Assembly (NCBI RefSeq): GCF_900631615.1
Contig: NZ_LR131273.1
Span: 2,108,001 to 2,172,000 of the forward strand
Reading direction: 5' to 3'
Origin: Tsukamurella paurometabola
GTDB taxonomy: Bacteria > Actinomycetota > Actinomycetes > Mycobacteriales > Mycobacteriaceae
DNA length: 64,000 bases
Program-made: the position numbers and the translations under genes
Shown: positions 46,023-64,000 of the stretch, one piece after another
How the letters are laid out: the number at the start of each line of letters is the position of its first letter
How positions within the stretch are numbered: position 1 is the stretch's first letter
The notes under the pieces: model-generated
Told to the model about the DNA's origin: nothing
The model's database searches: none
What the model saw: the letters and a program-made list of their open reading frames with translations, nothing else

Positions 46023-48703
<2,681 letters not shown>

Positions 48704-48740
48704 TGTGCGCTTCCGAGCGTAGCGCACCTGCCGAGGAGTC

Positions 48741-54243: not shown

Positions 54244-54978
54244 ATGACGAAGCGTCAGTTCCTCGCCCCGATCGCGATCCTTCCGGTGGCGGCCCTCGCC
54301 CTGACGGGCTGCACCCCGGACGAGAAGAGCTCGGACACGCCCGGCACGACGCCCGCGGTCGTCACCGGCGCGACGGTGCCCGGTCAGGGCCCGGTCCGCA
54401 GCCTGGACCCGAGCGCGCACGGTGAGGAGGCCAAGCCGGGCGAGAGCGCACCGTCGGCCGGCACCGCGGAGGCCTCGCTCGTCAAGCCCGACGGCAGCAG
54501 CGCCGGCAAGGCCACCTTCTCCGAGAAGGACGGCGTCGTGGTGATCGACGTCCGCGTCACCGGGCTCCCCGCGGGCTTCCACGGCATGCACATCCACGAG
54601 GTGGGCAAGTGCGAGCCGAACTCGGTGGCCAAGAACGGCGCGCCCGGCTCGGCGACCAACTTCGGCTCCGCCGGCGGCCACTGGCAGAAGCCCGGCGCCT
54701 CCGGCCACCCGATGACCGGCGACCTCGTCTCGATCTACGTGAACGCCAACGGGACCGGTCAGACCGTGACCAGCACCGGCGCCTTCACCCTCGCCGACAT
54801 CAAGAAGAACACCGACGGCAACGCGCTCATGATCCACGCGGGCCCCGACAACTTCGGCAACATCCCGTCGGCGCGCTACGCCAACATCGTTCCGGGCCAG
54901 CCCGTGCCGGACGAGACGACCCTCAGCACCGGCGACGCCGGCGGGCGCATCGCCTGCGGCGTGATCAAGGTCGGTTAG
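54244..54978 (+). CDS. sodC: Periplasmic Cu-type superoxide dismutase lipoprotein
   Basis: A 244-residue lipoprotein (lipobox LTGC, Cys23) that converts external superoxide to peroxide and oxygen. Copper ligands appear in GMHIHEVGKCEP, the bridging histidine in SAGGHWQ, GHPMTGDL and MIHAG. A disulphide pair is Cys in GKCEP and Cys near the end (IACGVI). The mycobacterial orthologue Rv0432 needs copper but lacks zinc. A linker of about 70 residues separates the lipid anchor from the domain. AAGGAG precedes the ATG. Confidence 0.95.
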   Translation: MTKRQFLAPIAILPVAALALTGCTPDEKSSDTPGTTPAVVTGATVPGQGPVRSLDPSAHGEEAKPGESAPSAGTAEASLVKPDGSSAGKATFSEKDGVVVIDVRVTGLPAGFHGMHIHEVGKCEPNSVAKNGAPGSATNFGSAGGHWQKPGASGHPMTGDLVSIYVNANGTGQTVTSTGAFTLADIKKNTDGNALMIHAGPDNFGNIPSARYANIVPGQPVPDETTLSTGDAGGRIACGVIKVG

Positions 54979-54980
54979 TC

Positions 54981-56117
54981 ATCGAGCCCGTCGCCTTCGA
55001 GGCGTCGCAGCGGCCGACGATCGGTGTCGAGTGGGAATTCGCCCTCGTCGACCGGGAGACCGCGGACCTGGTGAGTCGCGCCGGGGAGCTGTTCGACGGC
55101 ATCCGCGCCGGCCACCCGGACCTCGCACCGCAGGTGCACTCCGAGATGCTGCGCAACACCGTCGAGGTCGTGACGGGCGTCTGTGACAACGCCGCGGAGG
55201 CGATGGGCGATCTGGCGACGGTGATCCGCGCGGTGCGCGCGGCGGCCGACCCGATGGGCGTGGACCTGTTCGGGGCCGGCACGCATCCGTTCGCGCAGTG
55301 GAACGCGCAGCAGCTGACCGAGAATCCGCGTTACGACGAGCTGATCGCGCGCACCCAGTGGTGGGGCCGGCAGATGCTCATCTGGGGCGTGCACGTGCAC
55401 GTCGGCGTGAACCACCGCGACAAGGTGCTGCCGATCATCTCGGCGCTGCTCAACCACTACCCGCACCTGCTGGCGCTCTCGGCCAGCTCCCCGATGTGGG
55501 GCGGCCACGACACCGGCTACGCCAGCACCCGCGCGATGATGTTCCAGCAGCTCCCCACCGCGGGCCTGCCCTTCCAGTTCGAGCGGTGGAGCGAGTTCGA
55601 GCGCTTCGTGCACGACCAGAAGACCACCGGGATCATCGACCACCTCAACGAGATCCGCTGGGACATCCGACCCGCCTGCCACCTCGGCACCATCGAGGTG
55701 CGGATCTGCGACGGCATGTCCTCGTTCGCGGAGCTCGAAGCGGTCGTCGCCCTGATCCACTGCCTCGTCGTGTGGCTCGACTCCCGGCTGGACGCGGGGG
55801 AGACCCTGCCGACGCTGCCGCCGTGGCACGTGCAGGAGAACAAGTGGCGCGCCGCCCGGTACGGCCTGGACGCCATCATCATCCAGGACGCCGACAACAA
55901 CGAGCGCCTGGTCACCGAGGACCTCGACGACCTGCTGGAGCAGCTCGCGCCCATCGCCCGCCGGCTCGGCTGCTCCCGCGAACTGGAGGCCGTCGCCGCG
56001 ATCCCGCGCCACGGGGCCTCGTATCAGCGGCAGCGCGCCGTGGCCGCGGGGGTGTGCAGCCCCGACGCCTACCGCGACGTCGTGCGGTCGGTCACCGGCG
56101 AACTCGTGCTGCCGTAG
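54981..56117 (+). CDS. Glutamate-cysteine ligase-like carboxylate-amine ligase, non-canonical start
   Basis: About 378 residues of the GCS2/YbdK family, collinear with Rv0433 (RPTIGVEWEFALVD, LRNTVEVVTG, GAGTHPFAQW, RTQWWGRQMLIWGVHVHVGV, WDIRPACHLGTIEVRICDG). The family joins an amino acid to glutamate through its gamma-carboxyl with ATP. The catalytic GVEWEF motif begins near the N-terminus, yet there is no ATG, GTG or TTG in frame between 54612 and that motif. The best start is ATC at 54981, two bases after the sodC stop; GTC or CTG are others, and a sequence error is possible. Translation probably reinitiates from sodC. Confidence 0.82.
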   Translation: MEPVAFEASQRPTIGVEWEFALVDRETADLVSRAGELFDGIRAGHPDLAPQVHSEMLRNTVEVVTGVCDNAAEAMGDLATVIRAVRAAADPMGVDLFGAGTHPFAQWNAQQLTENPRYDELIARTQWWGRQMLIWGVHVHVGVNHRDKVLPIISALLNHYPHLLALSASSPMWGGHDTGYASTRAMMFQQLPTAGLPFQFERWSEFERFVHDQKTTGIIDHLNEIRWDIRPACHLGTIEVRICDGMSSFAELEAVVALIHCLVVWLDSRLDAGETLPTLPPWHVQENKWRAARYGLDAIIIQDADNNERLVTEDLDDLLEQLAPIARRLGCSRELEAVAAIPRHGASYQRQRAVAAGVCSPDAYRDVVRSVTGELVLP

Positions 56118-56157: not shown

Positions 56158-56182
56158 GTTAACGAAAATGATTGTCGTTAAC
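56158..56182 (+). promoter_or_regulatory. Zur/Fur-family operator covering the metallophore operon promoter
   Basis: Perfect arms GTTAACGA (56158-56165) and TCGTTAAC (56175-56182) enclose AAATGATTG. The centre reads GAAAATGATTGTC, one base off the Zur-like GAAAATGATTTTC. It lies between and over the candidate -35 (TTGTTA, 56156-56161) and -10 (TTAACT, 56178-56183). The -10 ends seven bases before the GTG, so the transcript is probably leaderless and switched off by metal-loaded regulator. Zinc is the best guess, iron the alternative. Confidence 0.78.
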
Positions 56183-56190
56183 TTGGTCGC

Positions 56191-57258
56191 GTGCTCACCA
56201 CCCCGCTCGGCCGTCGCGCCGGCGCCTCCCCGCTCGTCCTCGCCGGAGCCCTCGCGGCGGCGCTCGTCGTGTCGATGGCCGTCGCGGTGTCCCAGGGCGC
56301 GGCGACGGTGCCGCTCGGCGACGTCCGTCGCCTCCTCTGGGCGGCGCTGACCGGCGGAACCCTCGCCCGCGAGGACGCGTCCACCTATTCGATCCTGTGG
56401 GACCTCCGCGTTCCCCGCGTCCTGCTCGCCGCCCTCGTCGGTGCCGGCCTGGCGATCGCCGGCGTCGCCTGCCAGGCCCTCGTCCGCAATCCGCTCGCCG
56501 ACCCCTTCATCCTCGGGATCTCCAGCGGCGCGTCCGTCGGCGCGAGCCTCGTCGTCACGACCGGGTTCGCCGCGGGGCTCGGGCTCGCGGGCACCGCCGG
56601 GGCGGCCTTCGCGACGGCCGTGCTCGCCTCCCTGCTCGTCTACCTGCTCAGCCGCACGCCCGACGGTGCGCTCAGTCCCGTCCGGCTGGTGCTCACGGGC
56701 GTGGTGCTCGCCTTCGCTTTCCAGGGGCTCGCCGGCGCCGTCGTGTTCTTCGACCCCGTCGGCGACGCTGCGCGGTCCGTGATGTTCTGGCTGTTGGGCG
56801 GACTCGGCGGGGCGCAGTGGTCGGTGCTGCCCCTGGTTGCCGCGACGGTCGCGCTGTGCGGCGCGATCATCGGGCGCCTCGCGGGGGTCCTCGACGTCCT
56901 CGCACAGGGCGACGAGGCGGCCGCGTCGCTCGGGCTCGACCCGCACCGCGCCCGGCGGGTGCTGTTCCTCGTCATCGTGGCCATGACCTCGGTGCTCGTG
57001 GCGACGGCGGGCACCGTCGGCTTCGTCGGCCTCGTGGTCCCGCACGCGGTGCGGATGATCGTCGGCCCGGCGCACCGGGCGGTGCTCCTGGTCGCGCCGG
57101 TCGTCGGCGCGCTGCTGCTGGTCTGGGTGGACCTGCTGAGCCGGCTGGTGGTGGCGCCGCGGGAGCTACCGCTGGGCATCGTCACGGCGCTCGTCGGCGT
57201 GCCCGTCTTCATCGCCCTGCTGCGGCGCCGCGGGGGTCTGCTGGGCGGTGGCGTGTGA
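56191..57258 (+). CDS. FecCD-type metal-chelate ABC permease
   Basis: A 355-residue permease with about nine or ten helices. Family blocks are LRVPRVLLAALVGAGLAIAGVACQALVRNPLADPFILGISSGAS, the coupling segment LGLDPHRARRVLF and GTVGFVGLVVPHAVRMIVGPAHR. Unlike the other importer in this window there is a single permease gene, so the channel would be a homodimer, as in BtuC. First gene of a seven-gene operon; starts with GTG behind the Zur-type box. Confidence 0.9.
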   Translation: MLTTPLGRRAGASPLVLAGALAAALVVSMAVAVSQGAATVPLGDVRRLLWAALTGGTLAREDASTYSILWDLRVPRVLLAALVGAGLAIAGVACQALVRNPLADPFILGISSGASVGASLVVTTGFAAGLGLAGTAGAAFATAVLASLLVYLLSRTPDGALSPVRLVLTGVVLAFAFQGLAGAVVFFDPVGDAARSVMFWLLGGLGGAQWSVLPLVAATVALCGAIIGRLAGVLDVLAQGDEAAASLGLDPHRARRVLFLVIVAMTSVLVATAGTVGFVGLVVPHAVRMIVGPAHRAVLLVAPVVGALLLVWVDLLSRLVVAPRELPLGIVTALVGVPVFIALLRRRGGLLGGGV

Positions 57259-58004
57259 GGGTCGAGCTCGATCGCGTCACCGTCGACCTCGGCGGCTCCC
57301 GGGTGCTCCACGAGGTCTCGCTCGACATCGCGGCGGGCGAGCACATCGGGCTCATCGGGCCCAACGGCAGCGGCAAGTCGACCCTCCTGCGCTGCCTCTA
57401 CCGCGCCATCGCTCCGACCTCAGGAGTCGTGCGCGTCGGCGGCGAGGAACTCGGCGCCCTCCGCCGGCGCGAGGGCGCGCGCCGGATCGCCGCCGTCACC
57501 CAGAGCGAGACCGGGCACCTGGGCTTCACCGCGAGCGAGACCGTCATGCTCGGCCGGTTCGCACACGGCGACGCGGGCGATGCCGCGGCGGCACGGGTCT
57601 GCGAGGCGGCGCTCGCCGCGGTCGGCGCCACCCACCTCCGCGACCGCAGCGTGCTCGGGCTCTCGGGCGGCGAACGGCAGCGCGTCCTCATCGCCCGCGC
57701 CCTCGCGCAGGACACTCCCGTCCTCCTGCTCGACGAGCCACTCAACCACCTCGACGTGCGGCATCAACTGGACCTGCTGCGGCTGCTCCGCGCCACCACG
57801 AAGACGACCGTCACGGCGATCCACGATATCGACCTCGCCGCGCAGAGCTGCGAGCGCCTGGTGCTGCTCGACCGCGGGCGAGTGGTCGCGGCCGGGACCC
57901 CGGCCGCGGTCCTCACACCCGATCGGATCGCGGACGTCTACGGCGTGCGGCCCGTGATCACCGCGGACGGCGCAGCACCGCCGCGCATCCGCTTCGACCT
58001 GTAA
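57255..58004 (+). CDS. Metal-chelate ABC transporter ATP-binding protein
   Basis: A 249-residue FecE/BtuD-type ATPase: Walker A GPNGSGKST (35-43), Q-loop in VTQSETG, signature LSGGERQR, Walker B VLLLDEPLNHLDVR and switch histidine in AIHDIDLA. It starts with GTG overlapping the permease stop (GTGA) and powers that permease. Confidence 0.92.
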   Translation: MRVELDRVTVDLGGSRVLHEVSLDIAAGEHIGLIGPNGSGKSTLLRCLYRAIAPTSGVVRVGGEELGALRRREGARRIAAVTQSETGHLGFTASETVMLGRFAHGDAGDAAAARVCEAALAAVGATHLRDRSVLGLSGGERQRVLIARALAQDTPVLLLDEPLNHLDVRHQLDLLRLLRATTKTTVTAIHDIDLAAQSCERLVLLDRGRVVAAGTPAAVLTPDRIADVYGVRPVITADGAAPPRIRFDL

Positions 58005-58033
58005 CACCCCACCGATCGAAAGGATCGACCCCG

Positions 58034-59035
58034 ATGCCTCCCCGTTCCCTGCTCGCCGCGACCGTCGCGGCGAGCACGCTGCTCGCCGGCACCGCCTGCG
58101 GTGCGCGGCCCGCAGAATCCACGACGGACCTCGTCGACGTCACCAACTGCGGTGTGCACCAGCAGTACCGGTCGCCGACCGCCGCGGTGCCGTACGACGT
58201 CTCGGCGATCGAGAAGATGTTCGCGCTCGGGCTCACCGACCGCATCAAGGGCATCGTCCTGCCGAAGACCGTGCACGGTGTGATCGCGAAGTCCCCGTAC
58301 CGCGACGAGTACGCGAAGGTGCCGATCCTCAGCGACGGCGTCCTGACCCAGGAACCGCTCGTAGCCGCCAAGGCGGACTGGGTGTTCGCGGGCTGGCAGG
58401 CGGGCTTCAGCCCCGCCCGCGGGGTCACGCCGGAATCGCTGGGGAAGCTGCGGATCGACAGCTACATGCAGGAGGAGACCTGCTACAACTACGGCGACAA
58501 GCCCGCCGCGCGCGCAGCGAACCCGTTGGCCGACACCTACACCGATCTCACCAACCTGGGCGCGATCTTCCGCGTCCAGGACCGCGCGACGAAGCTGGTC
58601 GACGACCTGCGCGCCCGCGAACGCGCGTTGCAGGAGCGCGCCGACCGCAAGACGGTGCGGCCGTCCGTCTTCGTCTACGACTCGGGGACCGCGGAGCCGT
58701 ACACCGCGGGCCGCCGCGCCGCGGCCGACCAGGTGGTCTCCCTGGCGGGCGGGCGCTCCGTGACGCACGACGTGGACGGCCGGTGGACCTCCGTCGGCTG
58801 GGAGTCCGTGGTGCAGGCGCAACCGCAGGTGATCGTGATCGTCGACTACGACAAGCAGCCCGCGCAGCAGAAGATCGACTACCTCCGGCAGTCGTCGCCG
58901 ATCAAGGACGCGCCGGCCGTGCGCGAGAACCGCATCCGGGTCGTGGACTACGCCGAGCTGGTGGCGGGGCCGCGCAACCTCGACGCGGCCGCGGGTCTCG
59001 CGGACTACCTGGAGCAGAGCGGGGCGGCCCGATGA
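58034..59035 (+). CDS. Metal-chelate binding lipoprotein
   Basis: A 333-residue FecB/BtuF-like lipoprotein. The lipid-anchored cysteine is Cys22 (GTAC). The binding fold is recognisable from DVSAIEKMFALGLTDRIKGIVLP, VAAKADWVFAGWQAGF and VVQAQPQVIVIVDYDKQP. Extra cysteines in VTNCGVH and EETCYNYG are unusual and might form a disulphide or touch the ligand. AAAGGA precedes the ATG. It is the capture protein for the upstream permease and ATPase. Confidence 0.87.
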   Translation: MPPRSLLAATVAASTLLAGTACGARPAESTTDLVDVTNCGVHQQYRSPTAAVPYDVSAIEKMFALGLTDRIKGIVLPKTVHGVIAKSPYRDEYAKVPILSDGVLTQEPLVAAKADWVFAGWQAGFSPARGVTPESLGKLRIDSYMQEETCYNYGDKPAARAANPLADTYTDLTNLGAIFRVQDRATKLVDDLRARERALQERADRKTVRPSVFVYDSGTAEPYTAGRRAAADQVVSLAGGRSVTHDVDGRWTSVGWESVVQAQPQVIVIVDYDKQPAQQKIDYLRQSSPIKDAPAVRENRIRVVDYAELVAGPRNLDAAAGLADYLEQSGAAR

Positions 59036-59826
59036 GCGCGCCCGGTTCCGTCGCCGATGCGCTGGACCTGGCCAGGGAGGCCGCCGGGGACGAGATCGCG
59101 CGCAGCGTCTTCTTCGTCGCGCACGGCACCCGTCTCGCCGGCAGCGACCAGCGCTACCGCAACCGCTACGTCCTCGTCCGCGTCGGGGACTCCTTCGGCG
59201 CGTGCGCCTTCGAGGAGGGCGAGCTCGACCCCACGGTCGCGGACCTCTCCGGTGAGCCGCTCGCGGCGTTGCTCGACGCACCGGCGCAGCCGCTGCGGAT
59301 CGCCGCGGCGGACGCCGCCCTCGCCGCAGCGGCCCCGCACCGCGACGACCCGCGCGCCGAGCTCCGGACGCTGCCGACCGGCACCCCCGACGCCCGGGCG
59401 ATCGCCCGCGACGCCGCGGTGGCGGAGCTGCTCGCCGTCGCGCCCGGCGCGCGCGTCGCACTGATCGGCGTGGTGAATCCGCTGGTGGCCGCGATCCGCG
59501 AGCGCGGCGGAGTGCCGCTGCTCGCGGACCGGAACCTGCAGCGCACGCACTGGGGCGACCCGGTCGCGGACGACCACCGCGCCGTCCTCGCCGAGGCGGA
59601 CGCCGTGCTCGCGACGGGGATGACGCTGGGCAACGGCAGCTTCGACGAGATCGTCGCGACCTGCCGGGAGCGCGACGTGCCGCTGGCGGTGTACGCGCAG
59701 AGCGGTGCCGCCGTCGCCCGCGCCTTCCTCGGCGCGGGCCTGAGCGCCCTCTCGGCCGAGCACTTCCCGTTCTCGCAGTTCTCCGCCGACGCGTCCCCGA
59801 TGTACCTGTACCGGGGTGCCGCGTGA
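59032..59826 (+). CDS. DUF364-like Rossmann protein
   Basis: A 264-residue cytosolic protein. An N-terminal alpha/beta part (about 20-100, enolase-N-like in the family) is followed by a Rossmann-like C-terminal part with GVVNPLVAAIRERGGVPLLADRN (146-168) and GMTLGNGSFDEIVATCRE (196-213). The DUF364/DUF4213 structure from Desulfitobacterium was proposed to take part in heavy-metal chelation. No enzyme activity is proven. The gene overlaps both neighbours by 4 bases, and its place between importer and exporter genes suggests work on the metal chelate, such as metal release or a biosynthetic step. Confidence 0.7.
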   Translation: MSAPGSVADALDLAREAAGDEIARSVFFVAHGTRLAGSDQRYRNRYVLVRVGDSFGACAFEEGELDPTVADLSGEPLAALLDAPAQPLRIAAADAALAAAAPHRDDPRAELRTLPTGTPDARAIARDAAVAELLAVAPGARVALIGVVNPLVAAIRERGGVPLLADRNLQRTHWGDPVADDHRAVLAEADAVLATGMTLGNGSFDEIVATCRERDVPLAVYAQSGAAVARAFLGAGLSALSAEHFPFSQFSADASPMYLYRGAA

Positions 59827-61028
59827 GCGCGGCCGCGGACCGCCCGCTCCCCGATCGGGTACTCGTCCGCGCGATCTGGCCGCTGCTCGCCGCCGCCGCG
59901 CTGGGTCTCGTCCCGTTCACGGTGATGGCGAACTTCCTCGTCGCCATCGCCGCCGACGCGCACGCCGGCGTCGACCTCATCGGCGGACTCCGCGGCCTCG
60001 GCGGGGTCGCCGCGCTCCTCGTCGGCGTCGCGGCGGCGCCCCTGCTGGACCGGCTGCCCCGGTCATCGGTCGCCGCGCTGGCGCTGGTCGTCCTCGCCGT
60101 GGGCTGCGGCCTCGCGCTCCAGGGCAGCACCGTCGCCTGGGTCGCCTTCTGCCTGTTGATCGGTGCGGGCACCGCCGTCCTCAACCCCGCGGTGGCCGCC
60201 ATGGCCGCCGACCGGTTCGACTCGCCGTCGGCATCCGCCCGCGCCGCGACCCTGGTCTCCTCCACCATGACGCTGACCGCGGTCCTCGCGGCACCGGTGC
60301 TCGCGCTGCCCGCCGTGCTGTGGGGTTGGCGCGCCGACATGGCCGGCACCACGGCGGTGCTGCTCGTGGTCGCGCTGCTGATCGCCCGGCGCCGCGACCC
60401 GCGCGGCGGCGACACCTCGGTGAGCTACCTGCAGGCGTTCCGCACCGTCCGGTCCCTACCCGGCGCACTCGACGTCCTGACCGTCTCGCTCCTGCGCACG
60501 CTGGCCTTCATGGGCTCCCTCGCCTACATCGCCGCAGCCTTCGGTCAGCGCTTCGGGATCGGCACCGGCTGGTTCTCACTGGTCTGGGCCACGTCCGGCC
60601 TCGCCTTCTTCCTCGGGAACTTCCTGGGCGGCAGGGTAATGCAGGACCGCGGCGCCGACCGGCTGCTCGGCGTGACGACGGCCGCGATCCTCGTCGCCGC
60701 CGCGGCGATGGCGGCGCTCTACACCGCGCCCCACGTCGCCGTCGCCTGGCTCATGGTGGCACTGGTCTCGGCGTCGCACGCCGTCATCGCGGCCGCGGTG
60801 ACCACGACGCTGGTGCGGGCGGCGGGGCCGGTGCGCGGCACCGTCCTGTCCCTGAACGGCGCGGCGCAGAGCGTCGGCGTGTTCGCCGGCGCCGCCCTCG
60901 CCGGCGCCGCCCTCGCGCTCGCCGGCTGGGCCGGCGTCGGCATCGCCCTCGGCGTCGCCACCGCGCTGGCGGTCGTCTTCGCCCGGCGCGCGCTGCGCGG
61001 GGCCCGCGCGACGGCGGGCGTCGAATGA
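59823..61028 (+). CDS. MFS transporter, candidate metallophore exporter
   Basis: A 401-residue major facilitator with twelve predicted helices, in two halves of six (for example LIGGLRGLGGVAALLVGVAAAPLLDRLPRSS between helices 2 and 3, the family's signature loop). It resembles drug or metabolite exporters of the DHA/Bcr group, with no match to sugar porters. Its place between a chelation-type protein and two biosynthetic genes suggests it exports the product, as CntE does for staphylopine. Direction and substrate are inferred. Confidence 0.82.
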   Translation: MSAAADRPLPDRVLVRAIWPLLAAAALGLVPFTVMANFLVAIAADAHAGVDLIGGLRGLGGVAALLVGVAAAPLLDRLPRSSVAALALVVLAVGCGLALQGSTVAWVAFCLLIGAGTAVLNPAVAAMAADRFDSPSASARAATLVSSTMTLTAVLAAPVLALPAVLWGWRADMAGTTAVLLVVALLIARRRDPRGGDTSVSYLQAFRTVRSLPGALDVLTVSLLRTLAFMGSLAYIAAAFGQRFGIGTGWFSLVWATSGLAFFLGNFLGGRVMQDRGADRLLGVTTAAILVAAAAMAALYTAPHVAVAWLMVALVSASHAVIAAAVTTTLVRAAGPVRGTVLSLNGAAQSVGVFAGAALAGAALALAGWAGVGIALGVATALAVVFARRALRGARATAGVE

Positions 61029-61945
61029 CAGCGGCACACATCGGTTCCCGCGGCCGCGGCGTCGGGCGGAGCAGCGGCCACCACGGCGAACTCCTGCAGG
61101 GCCGGTTCCGCTGCCGCGTCGCGGGCGAATGCCCCGGCCTCGTGACCGTGCCGATCGGCACCGTCGGGTCCGTGGCGGTGTTCACCCCGGACGCGTCCGG
61201 CGCCGTCCGCGCACGGTCCACCGTCGGCGCACACGATCTCGTCAAGGCGCGCCGCGCCGCCGCGGCGACGCTGGCGCACCTCCGCGCCCACGGCGTGCTC
61301 GGGTACACCGGCGGCGAGCTCCGCGTGACGCGGACGGCGGCCGTCGGCCTGGGACTGGGATCCTCGACCGCGGACGTGCTCGCGGCGGTCCGCGCGGTCG
61401 CGGACTGCGCCGATGCCGAGCTCGATGCCGGCACGGTCGCGCGACTCGCCGTCGCCGCCGAAGGGGCCTCCGACCCGCTGTGGGCCGATCGCCCGATCCT
61501 GTTCGCGCACCGGCACGGCCACGTCATCGAGGAGCTCGGGGAGGCCCTGCCCCCGATGCACCTGGTGCGATGCGTGCTCGGCGGGCCGGTCGAGACCCTC
61601 GCGCTGCGGCCCACGGGCACCGGTGACGTGGCGGAGTACGAGGTGCTGCGCGCACTGCTGCGCCGCGCCGTCGCCGCCGGTGATGCGGCGGGCGTCGCCG
61701 CAGTGGCGACCCGCAGCGCCGTGCTCAACCAGAGCCGCCACTACAAGCCGGGCCTCGAGCGCCTCATCGCCGCGGCCGAGCACGGGGGAGCGCTCGGGGT
61801 GCAGGTGGCGCACTCCGGGAACGTCGCGGGCCTGCTGTTCGAGCGCGGGCACCCGCGGGAACGGCTGCGCCGCGCCTGTTCCCGCGTGCGGGCCGAGGGC
61901 TTCCGCGTCGCGGAGGACCCGATCGCGATCGGTCGCGCCGCATGA
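61025..61945 (+). CDS. GHMP kinase, PduX-like (amino-acid kinase candidate)
   Basis: A 306-residue kinase of the GHMP superfamily. The ATP loop is GLGLGSSTAD (108-117), and the N-terminus has SGHHGELLQGRF, like the GxxGELLQG start of PduX, the L-threonine kinase of cobalamin side-chain synthesis. No cobalamin gene is nearby; instead a PLP enzyme follows with a 4-base overlap. The likely reaction is ATP-dependent phosphorylation of serine, threonine or homoserine to give a good leaving group for that enzyme. The substrate is inference. Confidence 0.78.
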   Translation: MTAAHIGSRGRGVGRSSGHHGELLQGRFRCRVAGECPGLVTVPIGTVGSVAVFTPDASGAVRARSTVGAHDLVKARRAAAATLAHLRAHGVLGYTGGELRVTRTAAVGLGLGSSTADVLAAVRAVADCADAELDAGTVARLAVAAEGASDPLWADRPILFAHRHGHVIEELGEALPPMHLVRCVLGGPVETLALRPTGTGDVAEYEVLRALLRRAVAAGDAAGVAAVATRSAVLNQSRHYKPGLERLIAAAEHGGALGVQVAHSGNVAGLLFERGHPRERLRRACSRVRAEGFRVAEDPIAIGRAA

Positions 61946-62946
61946 GGACCCACGGGCACATCGCCGAGGTGTTGAGCCGTCCCGCCCTCCTCCGCGGCGG
62001 CGAACACCGGTACCTGCTGCGATTCGAGTCGATGAAGGTCGCCTCGGCGAGGGCCGCCCTCCGCGCCGCACTCGACGCGGGCCGGGTCCGGCCCGGCGGC
62101 ACCGTCATCGACTCCTCGTCGGGCATCTACGCGTACGCGCTCGCGCTGGCCTGCCACGAGGCGGGCGTCCGCTGCCGCATCATCGGATCGACGACGATCG
62201 ACGAGGGACTGCGGCTCCAACTCCTCGCCCTCGGCGTGCACCTCGAGCAGATGCCGCCGTCGGCCTCGCTGAAGCTCGACCAGGACCGCCGCGTCCGGCG
62301 CATCACCGAACTGCTCGCGCAGGACCCGTCGTTGCACTGGATGAGGCAGTACCACGACCCCGTGCACTACCTCGGGTACCGGGACATCGCCCGCGACACG
62401 GCGACCGAGCTCGCGGCCCACGGGGCCGCGGCGGTGCGGCTCGTGGCGCCCGTCGGGTCGGGCGTCTCCAGCGGTGCACTGCGGCTCGGCTTCGAGGAGG
62501 CCGGCCTGGCCGTGGAACTGGTCGGCGTACAGCCGTTCGGCAGTGTCACGTTCGGCGCGGAGCACGTCGAGGACCCCGCCATGCTCATCGCCGGGATCGG
62601 CTCCTCGATTCCGTTCGACAACGTGCGTCACGGACTCTACGACGTGATCCACTGGGTGTCCTTCGACGTCGCCCGGGCCGGTACCCACCGGCTGCTCCGC
62701 GAGCACGCGCTGTTCGCCGGTCTCTCCTCCGGGGCCGGGCACGTCGCCGCCGACTACGAACAGGACCACGGCGCACCGGTCGACGCCACCGTGCAGGTGC
62801 TGCCGGACACGGGCCACCGCTACCTGCACGCCCTGGCCGAGCACTCCGATGCGGCCGGACCGGAGCGGCCGAGACTCGTCGACGATCCGTCGGAGGTCGC
62901 TGTGCCGTGGTCGCGGATGCGGTGGGCCGGCCGCCCCGGTACGTGA
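61942..62946 (+). CDS. PLP-dependent enzyme of cysteine-synthase fold, divergent
   Basis: A 334-residue fold-type II PLP enzyme. The Schiff-base lysine is probably Lys32 (FESMKVASA), the substrate loop DSSSGIYAYALA (57-68) stands for the usual S-G-N-T-G, and the phosphate cup is VGSGVSSGA (171-179). All are altered from cysteine synthase and SbnA, so a new substrate is likely. It may swap the phosphate of a kinase product for an amine or other nucleophile. It is the last gene of the operon, and its frame ends just before the convergent mnh genes. Confidence 0.8.
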   Translation: MRTHGHIAEVLSRPALLRGGEHRYLLRFESMKVASARAALRAALDAGRVRPGGTVIDSSSGIYAYALALACHEAGVRCRIIGSTTIDEGLRLQLLALGVHLEQMPPSASLKLDQDRRVRRITELLAQDPSLHWMRQYHDPVHYLGYRDIARDTATELAAHGAAAVRLVAPVGSGVSSGALRLGFEEAGLAVELVGVQPFGSVTFGAEHVEDPAMLIAGIGSSIPFDNVRHGLYDVIHWVSFDVARAGTHRLLREHALFAGLSSGAGHVAADYEQDHGAPVDATVQVLPDTGHRYLHALAEHSDAAGPERPRLVDDPSEVAVPWSRMRWAGRPGT

Positions 62947-62957
62947 CCCGCGGGTCG

Positions 62958-63290
62958 CTAGTCGCGGTTGCCGGTCTCCATCTGGTCCGGGTCGATGGTG
63001 CTGTCGCGCAGCCGCTGCTCCTGGTAGGCCACCCGACCGACCCGGTGCGCGACGGCGGGCGCCGTGATCATGGTGAACAGCCCGGCCAGCACCAGCATCC
63101 ACACGTCGACCGAATCGGTCATCCGCACGATCGCGCCGGCCAGCAGCAGGAGCATCCCCAGGGTCTGCGGCTTGGTGGCCGCGTGCATGCGGGTCAGCGT
63201 GTCCGGGAACCGGATGATGCCGATCGCCGCGGTCACGGCGAAGACGGCGCCCGTGAGGAACAGGATCGAGGAGACGACGTCGACGATCAT
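62958..63290 (-). CDS. mnhG: Na+(K+)/H+ antiporter subunit G
   Basis: A 110-residue subunit with three helices: about 5-27, 42-60 and 62-85. It shows the conserved IGIIRFPDTLTRMHAATKPQTLGM motif of MrpG/MnhG. The Mrp complex exchanges sodium or potassium for protons and supports pH and salt tolerance. Its ATG overlaps the mnhF stop. It converges on the metallophore operon with an 11-bp gap. Confidence 0.92.
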   Translation of the reverse strand: MIVDVVSSILFLTGAVFAVTAAIGIIRFPDTLTRMHAATKPQTLGMLLLLAGAIVRMTDSVDVWMLVLAGLFTMITAPAVAHRVGRVAYQEQRLRDSTIDPDQMETGNRD

Positions 63291-63610
63291 CGGAGACCCC
63301 CGTTCCGCGGCGCGATGTCCGGCGTCTCGTCGGGCGGCGAGGGGGCCGTCCCCGCATCGTCGGGCACCCGGAACCGGACCACCGAGACCGAGCCCACGAA
63401 ACCGATGAGCGAGAGCGCGACGATCCCGGGGATGACCGACGAGTTGCGGCTGTACGCGGCCCACACCGCGAGGCCGCCGACGGCGATCGCGACGAGCGCG
63501 TCCACCGCGACCACCCGGTCGAGAGTGTTCGGGCCGCGCAGCAGCCGATAGGCGGTGAGGAAGGCGGCGGCCATGAGGATCACGCCGGTGATGACGAAGA
63601 CGACGGTCAC
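63287..63610 (-). CDS. mnhF: Na+(K+)/H+ antiporter subunit F
   Basis: A 107-residue subunit of the Mrp/Mnh complex with three helices. The conserved RLLRGPNTLDRVVAVDALVAIAVGG segment identifies MrpF/MnhF. The C-terminal 25 residues are polar and specific to this lineage. The GTG start overlaps the mnhE stop (GTGA). Confidence 0.91.
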   Translation of the reverse strand: MTVVFVITGVILMAAAFLTAYRLLRGPNTLDRVVAVDALVAIAVGGLAVWAAYSRNSSVIPGIVALSLIGFVGSVSVVRFRVPDDAGTAPSPPDETPDIAPRNGGLR

Positions 63611-64000
63611 GGCTTCCCCTCTCCCTCGGTGCTCTGCGCCCTGCGGTAGGCGATCTCGGGCGCGGCCATCCGGCGCGCGTCGCCCGCCAGGCCACGGGCA
63701 CCGGGCGCGACGTGGTGGTACTCGTCGTCATCGATGCCGTGCATCGGGCTGGCGTGCCACTCGTTGTCGCGCTCGAACGCGTCGATGAACAGCCGCTCGA
63801 GGCGCGCGGTGCTGCGGTAGAACTGCCGCACGGCCTTCTCGCTGCTGACGTCGACGACGTGCACGTAGAGCAGCCGCCGCTTGGTGTCGATCTCCAGCAC
63901 CATCGTGCCCGGGATGAGGTTCATCATGTCGACCAGCAGGGTGAGCACCAGGTCGGACTTGATCGAGACCTTCGCCCGCAGTACCGCGCTGAGCGGCATC
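63607..64000 (-). CDS. mnhE: Na+(K+)/H+ antiporter subunit E, C-terminal part
   Basis: This gene runs out of the window at its 5' end; the last 130 codons are present. The visible VSIKSDLVLTLLVDMMNLIPGTMVLEIDTKRRLLYVHVVDV is the conserved core of MrpE/MnhE, followed by a polar C-terminal tail. The ATG at 63999 is internal, because the family's first two helices lie upstream. The order E-F-G matches Mrp operons. Confidence 0.88.
   Translation of the reverse strand, partial: MPLSAVLRAKVSIKSDLVLTLLVDMMNLIPGTMVLEIDTKRRLLYVHVVDVSSEKAVRQFYRSTARLERLFIDAFERDNEWHASPMHGIDDDEYHHVAPGARGLAGDARRMAAPEIAYRRAQSTEGEGKP

Follow-up and report, generated by a model that had tools for sequence, protein, structure and literature searches.

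A seven-gene operon behind a Zur-type palindrome in Tsukamurella paurometabola is a candidate system for zincophore synthesis, export and re-uptake

Results

Seven tightly packed genes follow a 25-bp palindrome

The window analyzed here is a 64,000-nucleotide stretch of the Tsukamurella paurometabola genome (contig NZ_LR131273.1, positions 2,108,001 to 2,172,000, forward strand). Seven tightly packed genes stand behind a 25-bp palindrome in the order FecCD permease, ATPase, binding lipoprotein, DUF364, MFS, GHMP kinase and PLP enzyme.

56158..56182, no strand: putative Zur-type operator, 25-bp palindrome, core GAAAATGATTGTC at 56164-56176
56191..57258, + strand: FecCD-type permease, GTG start, presumed part of a metal-chelate ABC importer (Pfam FecCD, 3.3e-81)
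57255..58004, + strand: ABC importer ATPase, FecE/BtuD-like, GTG start (Pfam ABC_tran, 4.8e-32)
58034..59035, + strand: substrate-binding lipoprotein of the Peripla_BP_2 family (Pfam Peripla_BP_2, 2.3e-14)
59032..59826, + strand: DUF364 protein (Pfam DUF364, 3e-10)
59823..61028, + strand: MFS transporter, presumed exporter (Pfam MFS_1, 4.4e-25)
61025..61945, + strand: GHMP-fold kinase, presumed free serine/threonine kinase (Pfam GHMP_N, 3e-9; GHMP_C, 7e-5)
61942..62946, + strand: fold-type II PLP enzyme, divergent SbnA-like, presumed beta-replacement synthase (Pfam PALP, 3.1e-27)

Five of the six junctions are 4-base overlaps and the sixth is a 29-nt gap (58005-58033). The gene set, the box and the tight junctions were all found again as claimed in the initial annotation, which had described a seven-gene operon with one Zur/Fur-type box. 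Pfam and NCBIfam searches of the seven proteins detected no SbnB-, NRPS- or NIS-type protein, no opine dehydrogenase (CntM) and no CntL-type (nicotianamine-synthase-like) synthase.

The palindrome resembles a Zur box

The palindrome at 56158-56182 has 11 of 12 arm pairs complementary and ends 8 nt 5' of the first start codon. The box GAAAATGATTGTC was matched once in the window at ≤1 mismatch, compared with a mean of 0.01 in 100 window shuffles. The shuffle mean climbs to 0.71 at ≤3 mismatches, so looser matches in the window carry little meaning. The Streptomyces coelicolor Zur motif is given as tGaNNatSatNNtCa (PMC5472717), and the box core agrees with its GaNNatSatNNtC portion, the outer t/a being replaced by c/g.

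Searching the organism's own genome with TGAAAATNATTTTCA at ≤3 mismatches returned nine places, and the reversed control returned 3. Five of the nine are this operon, AztD, a ZigA-like GTPase, a cobW-family GTPase with an L28-L33-S14-S18 cluster of paralogous ribosomal proteins, and an ArsR/SmtB and Fur-family gene pair; recognized zinc genes are absent at 4 of the 9. No iron box (DtxR/IdeR-like) was found in the window or, at 114 other loci, within 2 kb of the DUF364 and PLP genes, L042 being the exception. That locus has the PLP and DUF364 genes without the kinase and without a Zur box, and its importers are of other kinds. The operon's palindrome is best read as a zinc box that Zur would bind, because it fits the S. 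coelicolor motif and because looser boxes of the same type accompany AztD, the ZigA-like GTPase, the ribosomal paralogues and the ArsR/Fur pair.

The gene set and its box are conserved in actinobacteria

A scan of species genomes returned 417 relatives of the PLP enzyme, of which the best 80 were kept, so the locus counts describe nearest relatives only. Removal of 12 loci shorter than 17 kb left 68 full-length loci. A gene was counted as present when its tblastn match spanned 40% or more of the query length at a set identity (kinase, 37%; DUF364, 45%; FecCD, 40%; MFS, 40% or 55%; argininosuccinate-lyase (ASL)-like, 35%). Counts for L032-L065 were made by tblastn, since gene calling overlooked several kinases whose genes overlap that of the PLP enzyme. 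The two locus samples overlap, for example in L032 and L079.

Fifty of these 68 full-length loci contain the PLP, DUF364, kinase, FecCD and MFS genes together. DUF364 is found in 64 and MFS also in 64, with a second MFS group substituting for the window's MFS in Pseudonocardiaceae-type and most Streptomyces loci. A methyltransferase is added in 19/68, and an ASL-like gene (tblastn, at least 35%) was detected in 0/68. All 54 kinase-holding loci of this set have DUF364. Conversely, a kinase of at least 37% identity is missing in 10 of the 64 DUF364-holding loci: four have one of 33-34% and six have none detected.

Boxes of the same type are present at 12 of 13 window-type order-level loci, the window counted. 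A module gene has an upstream box in 48 of the 80 nearest loci (best 80 of 417 relatives), and 57 of the 64 boxes there lie ≤600 nt upstream of a module gene; the corresponding figure for four permuted palindromes is 0 of 3. A box at ≤2 substitutions is missing in 29 of these 80 loci, and the three inspected carry looser palindromes. At L041 the box and the called permease start overlap. The co-occurrence of the kinase-PLP pair with the importer and Zur boxes that the initial annotation proposed to test is borne out by the 50 complete loci and the boxes in front.

A class sample of 296 genomes was analyzed for the same linkage. The PLP gene is present in 13 of 15 kinase genomes (hypergeometric 5e-16, uncorrected for kinship); of the two kinase genomes lacking it, one is an assembly of 970 contigs and the other has a weak kinase match. 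It is also present in 17 of 22 DUF364 genomes and missing from 5, and in 16/16 of those with a DUF364 match below 1e-100 (hypergeometric 4e-23, with the line chosen post hoc and kinship uncorrected). A kinase match at 1e-40 is lacking in 7 of 20 PLP genomes.

The kinase and importer belong to broad families

All 19 of 19 sequence homologues place the kinase among the GHMP kinases, and the predicted fold agrees. Structure matches leave homoserine, mevalonate and galactose kinases unseparated. The GHMP part of the earlier label "PduX-like GHMP kinase" stands; for the PduX part, the kinase matched no PduX model in NCBIfam, which may hold none. The nearest solved chains to the lipoprotein, 4mlz and 4n01, are periplasmic binding proteins. 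The permease's top NCBIfam model is an 'F420-0 ABC' permease, below cut-off, and the F420-0 ABC transporter models TIGR03868/03869/03873 fell short at 158 of 392, 263 of 437 and 240 of 372 bits.

The second-best NCBIfam permease model is BtuC (194 bits), which would suit a cobalamin-related operon in which a BtuC/BtuD/BtuF-like importer is joined by a threonine kinase of the PduX kind, serving the aminopropanol arm. This assignment is very improbable: the BtuC model has a cut-off of 461, the operon has a Zur-type box, and an Rfam gathering scan of the window and seven relatives found no cobalamin riboswitch. Moreover, the PLP enzyme is of fold-type II, whereas the cobalamin aminopropanol route uses a type I PLP decarboxylase. 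Those conserved neighbors that are annotated are neither cobalamin nor cysteine genes, the two contexts that the initial annotation had set against its own reading. The Rfam scan also located two TPP riboswitches in the window, away from the operon.

The PLP enzyme is a divergent relative of SbnA

The best NCBIfam model for the PLP enzyme is SbnA (TIGR03945), with 113.8 bits against a curated cut-off of 349.95, which together with the PALP match agrees with the divergent fold-type II enzyme first proposed. The Schiff-base lysine, Lys32, is invariant (12/12) and aligns with Lys47 of the SbnA variant 5d87. Tyr137 is likewise invariant (12/12) and aligns with position 152 of that variant, which we take to be Tyr in wild-type SbnA. 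At SbnA position 185, presumably Ser in the wild type, the window enzyme has Gly. It also has no NPxGS segment ahead of the lysine, and its counterpart of the TSGNTG loop is missing the Asn. The reaction may differ from that of SbnA, given the sub-cut-off score, the two missing elements and Gly at 185.

Distant kinase-PLP pairs occur in a different setting

Distant relatives of the kinase-PLP pair define type C clusters, in which the kinase is 31-45% and the PLP enzyme 30-35% identical to the window's proteins. Their PLP enzymes fall across a 100/100 branch from the window-type enzymes. In 13 of the 14 regions holding the kinase, the pair sits in a lyase/ATP-grasp cluster with no FecCD permease (ASL-like lyase, 13/14; FecCD, 0/14), and the adjoining genes are lyase, ATP-grasp and in part NRPS-like. 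The kinase-PLP pair alone is therefore not specific to the metallophore-type operon. The initial annotation's metallophore synthesis, export and uptake system holds at the level of the whole gene set, with its 50 loci and boxes, but not as a property of the pair; its chemistry and metal we infer. The type C clusters may be likened to the diamino-acid cassettes of friulimicin and pacidamycin. They share with the window operon a related kinase and PLP enzyme within one cluster, and differ in having an ASL-like lyase and no FecCD, whereas the window operon has FecCD and no lyase.

The type C lyase would split an aspartate adduct, and building blocks are the probable products of the related pairs in ASL-like/NRPS-like clusters. 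By analogy, and with the methyltransferase in 19 of the 68 full-length loci in view, the zincophore could be made through one of the diamino acids Dap and diaminobutyrate, or through another small unit, formed by ammonia or sulfur addition, with other genes finishing the molecule. We give this route a slim chance: the ASL-like gene that would release the unit is absent from those 68 nearest-relative loci, and the seven genes include none of SbnB, NRPS or NIS type to release or use it.

DUF364 (PF04016) scores above its gathering cut-off with a full-length fold match, and Pfam names the family for heavy-metal chelation. This name, the constant presence of DUF364 in the 54 kinase-holding full-length loci among the nearest relatives, the importer genes' first place in the operon and a PLP enzyme divergent enough for a lyase role would all fit import of a foreign chelate under Zur, its dismantling by DUF364, kinase and PLP enzyme, and expulsion of the remains by the MFS protein. 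Such a catabolic operon is unlikely, though worth keeping in view: SbnA, the best family match, is biosynthetic, the related pairs adjoin lyase, ATP-grasp and partly NRPS-like genes, and a GHMP kinase is not obviously needed for degradation.

Discussion

The operon probably encodes zinc-repressed synthesis, export and re-uptake of a zincophore by a two-enzyme route with the uncleaved adduct as ligand, judging from gene content and sequence. Under zinc shortage Zur would leave the palindrome and the operon would be transcribed. The GHMP kinase would phosphorylate free L-serine or L-threonine, and the PLP enzyme would eliminate the phosphate to give aminoacrylate (or its beta-methyl form) and couple this to a second amino acid through the amino group of the latter, aspartate being the likeliest candidate. 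The resulting N-(2-amino-2-carboxyethyl)-amino acid would be an aminopolycarboxylate of the toxin A/ACEGA type, like toxin A or EDDS. The adduct itself is taken as the product because there is no lyase or SbnB-type dehydrogenase to cleave it. The MFS protein would export the adduct, which would bind zinc and perhaps also nickel or cobalt, and the lipoprotein with the FecCD/ATPase importer would return the metal complex. DUF364 may act in the cytoplasm in metal release or ligand finishing.

More tentatively, and with somewhat less than even confidence, the operon may represent a widespread, so far unrecognized zincophore class for which a GHMP amino-acid kinase plus an SbnA-like synthase of divergent sequence are the only dedicated enzymes; the uncleaved adduct, toxin A or its beta-methyl counterpart, would be the chelator, and DUF364 would free the metal or finish the ligand inside the cell. 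If this is right, many actinobacteria including Streptomyces own compact zinc acquisition without NRPS, NIS or opine enzymes, and the hosts probably number in the hundreds of species, going by 417 relatives of the PLP enzyme (best 80 examined). The DUF364 family would gain a concrete setting beside metal importers, and bacteria an added route to AMA/EDDS-type aminopolycarboxylates, a class that attracts interest both for biodegradable chelation and for inhibiting metallo-beta-lactamases. No description of the gene set was found in the literature collection searched.

The operon differs from the staphyloferrin B SbnI-SbnA-SbnB system in having no SbnB and no NIS synthetase, in its Zur-type box as opposed to Fur control, and in its GHMP kinase; SbnI is not known to be a GHMP kinase. 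The proposed likeness lies in a serine kinase that supplies a fold-type II PLP enzyme with O-phosphoserine: SbnI makes O-phosphoserine, the SbnA substrate, and SbnA converts it with glutamate to ACEGA and phosphate (PMC7139808). The parallel drawn in the initial annotation is apt, SbnA being the best named family of the PLP enzyme. The export and ABC-import logic is that of staphylopine and pseudopaline, but the operon has neither CntM nor a nicotianamine-synthase-like gene; FecCD importers accompany some actinobacterial CntM clusters (PMC7438024).

Aspergillomarasmine A (AMA) and toxin A belong to the same class as the predicted product; they are fungal, and the likeness is one of product class. 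We know of no uptake operon for either. AMA consists of Asp and two Dap units and is described as a metallophore preferring Zn, Co and Ni (PMC11091072), with toxin A as its natural precursor (PMC10792612).

A relative's genome carries a separate Zur-boxed operon (L164) with SbnB-like, LysA-like decarboxylase, SbnA-like PLP and MATE genes and without kinase, DUF364 or FecCD genes. Its PLP enzyme shares 32% identity with that of the window operon and retains NPTGS and TSGNTG. By gene content L164 fits the EDDS set (aes genes), which we take to be SbnB-like, PLP decarboxylase, SbnA-like and exporter genes; of these the window operon has only an SbnA relative and an exporter of a different kind. 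[S,S]-EDDS of Amycolatopsis japonicum is a Zur-controlled zincophore with aspartate as a precursor (PMC9252823, PMC4993170, PMC6103462), which parallels the Zur-type box and the predicted use of aspartate in the window operon. Zincophores of a related chemical kind under Zur control are already known.

An operon of seven genes behind a Zur-type box

Gene calls, Pfam and the palindrome itself bear out the sequence observation of the initial annotation, a seven-gene operon with a regulatory box in front. The genes retain the coordinates assigned to them (56191-62946, + strand), and their packing was re-derived: five of the six junctions are 4-base overlaps and the other is a 29-nt gap. Pfam assigns the seven proteins to FecCD, ABC_tran, Peripla_BP_2, DUF364, MFS_1, GHMP kinase and PALP, the last a fold-type II PLP enzyme. 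Other features of the window are:

Features outside the operon
54244-54978, Cu/Zn superoxide dismutase-looking lipoprotein (by eye), directly upstream of the operon
about 54979-56117, carboxylate-amine ligase-like gene (by eye), directly upstream of the operon
62958-63999, - strand, Mrp-type antiporter subunits (by eye), convergent with the operon and running on into region L069
34724-34835, + strand, TPP riboswitch (58.1 bits)
48597-48709, - strand, TPP riboswitch (58.8 bits)

The order superoxide dismutase-like lipoprotein, carboxylate-amine ligase-like gene, operon is seemingly kept in L032, a region from another genome.

The palindrome GTTAACGAAAATGATTGTCGTTAAC lies at 56158-56182, 11 of its 12 arm pairs are complementary, and its end is 8 nt from the GTG start of the permease gene (56191). 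At one mismatch, GAAAATSATTTTC is expected 0.01 times by chance in the window. The core agrees with the Streptomyces coelicolor Zur motif, tGaNNatSatNNtCa, except for the outermost t and a (PMC5472717).

A whole-genome scan with TGAAAATNATTTTCA at up to 3 mismatches returned nine sites, and the reversed-pattern control returned 3. Five of the nine stand at zinc-type genes, the window operon among them. The others are an AztD homologue (zinc chaperone; 397.2 bits against a cut-off of 400), a ZigA-like GTPase gene (473.7 bits; cut-off 600), a cobW-family GTPase gene divergent from L28-L33-S14-S18 paralogues that are presumably the zinc-independent forms, and an ArsR/SmtB gene with a Fur-family gene behind it and a glycyl-tRNA synthetase gene (by eye) adjoining, which is also the order of mycobacterial smtB-zur. 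No recognized zinc gene was found at the remaining four sites. The window contains no DtxR/IdeR-like iron box. On its motif fit, its zinc-type gene company and the lack of an iron-type competitor, the operon box is read as a predicted Zur box. At sites in three genomic regions (L072, L076 and L164), a Zur-type box overlaps the start codon of several genes whose proteins begin MKMI or MGII; these transcripts are perhaps leaderless.

Conservation of the gene set and the box

Among 84,980 species genomes scanned, 417 relatives of the PLP enzyme turned up, and the best 80 were kept for study. Among these 80 the eight closest named relatives are from Tsukamurella (77-90% identity); the other named genera are Streptomyces, Corynebacterium (C. 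falsenii), Rothia, Kocuria, Curtobacterium, Austwickia, Kribbella, Nocardiopsis, Actinopolyspora, Pseudonocardia, Amycolatopsis, Thermocrispum, Prauserella and Kitasatospora, and all belong to the Actinomycetota. Genes were counted in the 68 of these loci that span at least 17 kb. The PLP, DUF364, kinase, FecCD and MFS genes occur together in 50; singly, DUF364 and MFS are each present in 64, FecCD in 58, the kinase in 54 and an ATP-grasp gene in 4. An argininosuccinate-lyase-like gene was found in 0 of the 68. The exporter position is filled by one MFS group in 23 loci and by another in 41, which speaks for a conserved role rather than an inherited neighborhood alone. In 51 of the 53 loci whose kinase and PLP genes are both on the + strand, the closest candidate PLP start falls within the 3' end of the kinase gene.

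Boxes at up to 2 substitutions number 64, spread over 51 of the 80 loci, and 57 of them (48 loci) precede a module gene by no more than 600 nt. With four permuted palindromes as controls, the search of the same 80 loci returned 3 boxes, 0 of them in such a position. Three box-less loci were inspected and have looser palindromes at the same place.

In a class sample of 296 genomes (thresholds 1e-60 for PLP, 1e-40 for kinase and DUF364), PLP was present in 20, kinase in 15 and DUF364 in 22. With kinship ignored, PLP accompanies the kinase in 13/15 genomes and DUF364 in 17/22, rising to 16/16 for DUF364 matches below 1e-100. Conversely, no kinase reached the 1e-40 threshold in 7 of the 20 genomes with PLP. 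Beyond the importer of one window-type locus lies a second, apparently broken kinase copy with one internal TGA (L165:16303-16734; G357:C1 about 1890004-1890652).

Within the order, 32 of 200 sampled genomes matched PLP at 1e-25, and 34 regions were each searched by tblastn. The 12 window-type regions (L032-L043) all contain DUF364 and an MFS gene; the kinase (43-84%), the permease (at least 55%) and a Zur-type box in front are each present in 11/12, L042 being the exception every time, and the window has the box as well. The PLP gene of eight further regions (L044-L051) adjoins an ATP-grasp gene, with a FecCD permease (31-57%) and a methyltransferase each in 7/8. DUF364 was not found by tblastn in these eight, nor was a Zur-type box at up to 2 substitutions or an iron-type box. 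This sister PLP type possibly serves an EDHA-like pathway.

In the last 14 regions (L052-L065), the PLP enzyme is more distant (30-35%). An argininosuccinate-lyase-like gene and a kinase (31-45%) are each found in 13/14, and a FecCD permease in 0/14 (tblastn). In four of these regions (L062, L063, L064 and L065), which also contain kinase and lyase-like genes, the PLP enzyme and an ATP-grasp ligase form a single fused protein of 744-782 residues. L061 is an intermediate gene set: its distant PLP gene adjoins an ATP-grasp gene and a DUF364 gene 43% identical to the window's (L061:8363-11543), and neither kinase nor lyase was found there.

Proposed chemistry

The initial annotation proposed a metallophore system whose product is made by the kinase and PLP enzyme. 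A metallophore system is the best explanation of the operon as a whole; the kinase-PLP chemistry is hypothetical. What stands out most among the new facts is how widely the gene set is conserved, how specifically it is tied to Zur-type boxes, and that it lacks the cleaving enzymes of related pathways.

In staphyloferrin B synthesis, SbnI makes O-phosphoserine, SbnA couples it with glutamate to give ACEGA, and SbnB cleaves ACEGA to Dap (PMC7139808). In the lyase clusters, the same kind of kinase accompanies a related PLP enzyme, and the lyase, judged by its family, would free fumarate from an aspartate adduct. The window operon lacks both SbnB and the lyase, though it has the kinase and PLP enzyme. 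The simplest reading of these two, set amid an exporter, an importer and a Zur-type box, is that the adduct formed by the PLP enzyme would stay whole and act as the chelator. It would be an aminopolycarboxylate like toxin A, the precursor of AMA (PMC10792612), which is itself a Zn/Co/Ni metallophore (PMC11091072).

The kinase is undetectable in 6 of the 64 DUF364 loci among the best 80 of the 417 relatives. Such loci could work if O-phosphoserine came from ordinary serine synthesis, and such use would favor serine over threonine as the phosphorylated substrate.

Comparison with known zincophores

No description of this gene set was found in the literature searched, a body outside which most subscription journals fall. 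EDDS of A. japonicum is under Zur control (PMC9252823, PMC4993170, PMC6103462). Another genome of the same order (G069) has a single box at up to 1 mismatch; it lies across the start of an amidase gene, ahead of divergent genes of the SbnB-like, LysA-like decarboxylase, SbnA-like and MATE types (L164:7953-14101), a set that fits EDDS chemistry. This EDDS-like operon and the window operon share a common logic but use other genes. The EDDS-like operon has no kinase, DUF364 or FecCD gene. The PLP enzyme of the EDDS-like operon retains the usual motifs and shares 32% identity with that of the window. Opine-type zincophores employ CntM (PMC7438024), and CntM is missing from the window operon. The window operon is probably of the Zur-controlled zincophore kind, yet its gene set is unlike the EDDS-like and opine-type sets and it is therefore placed outside both families.
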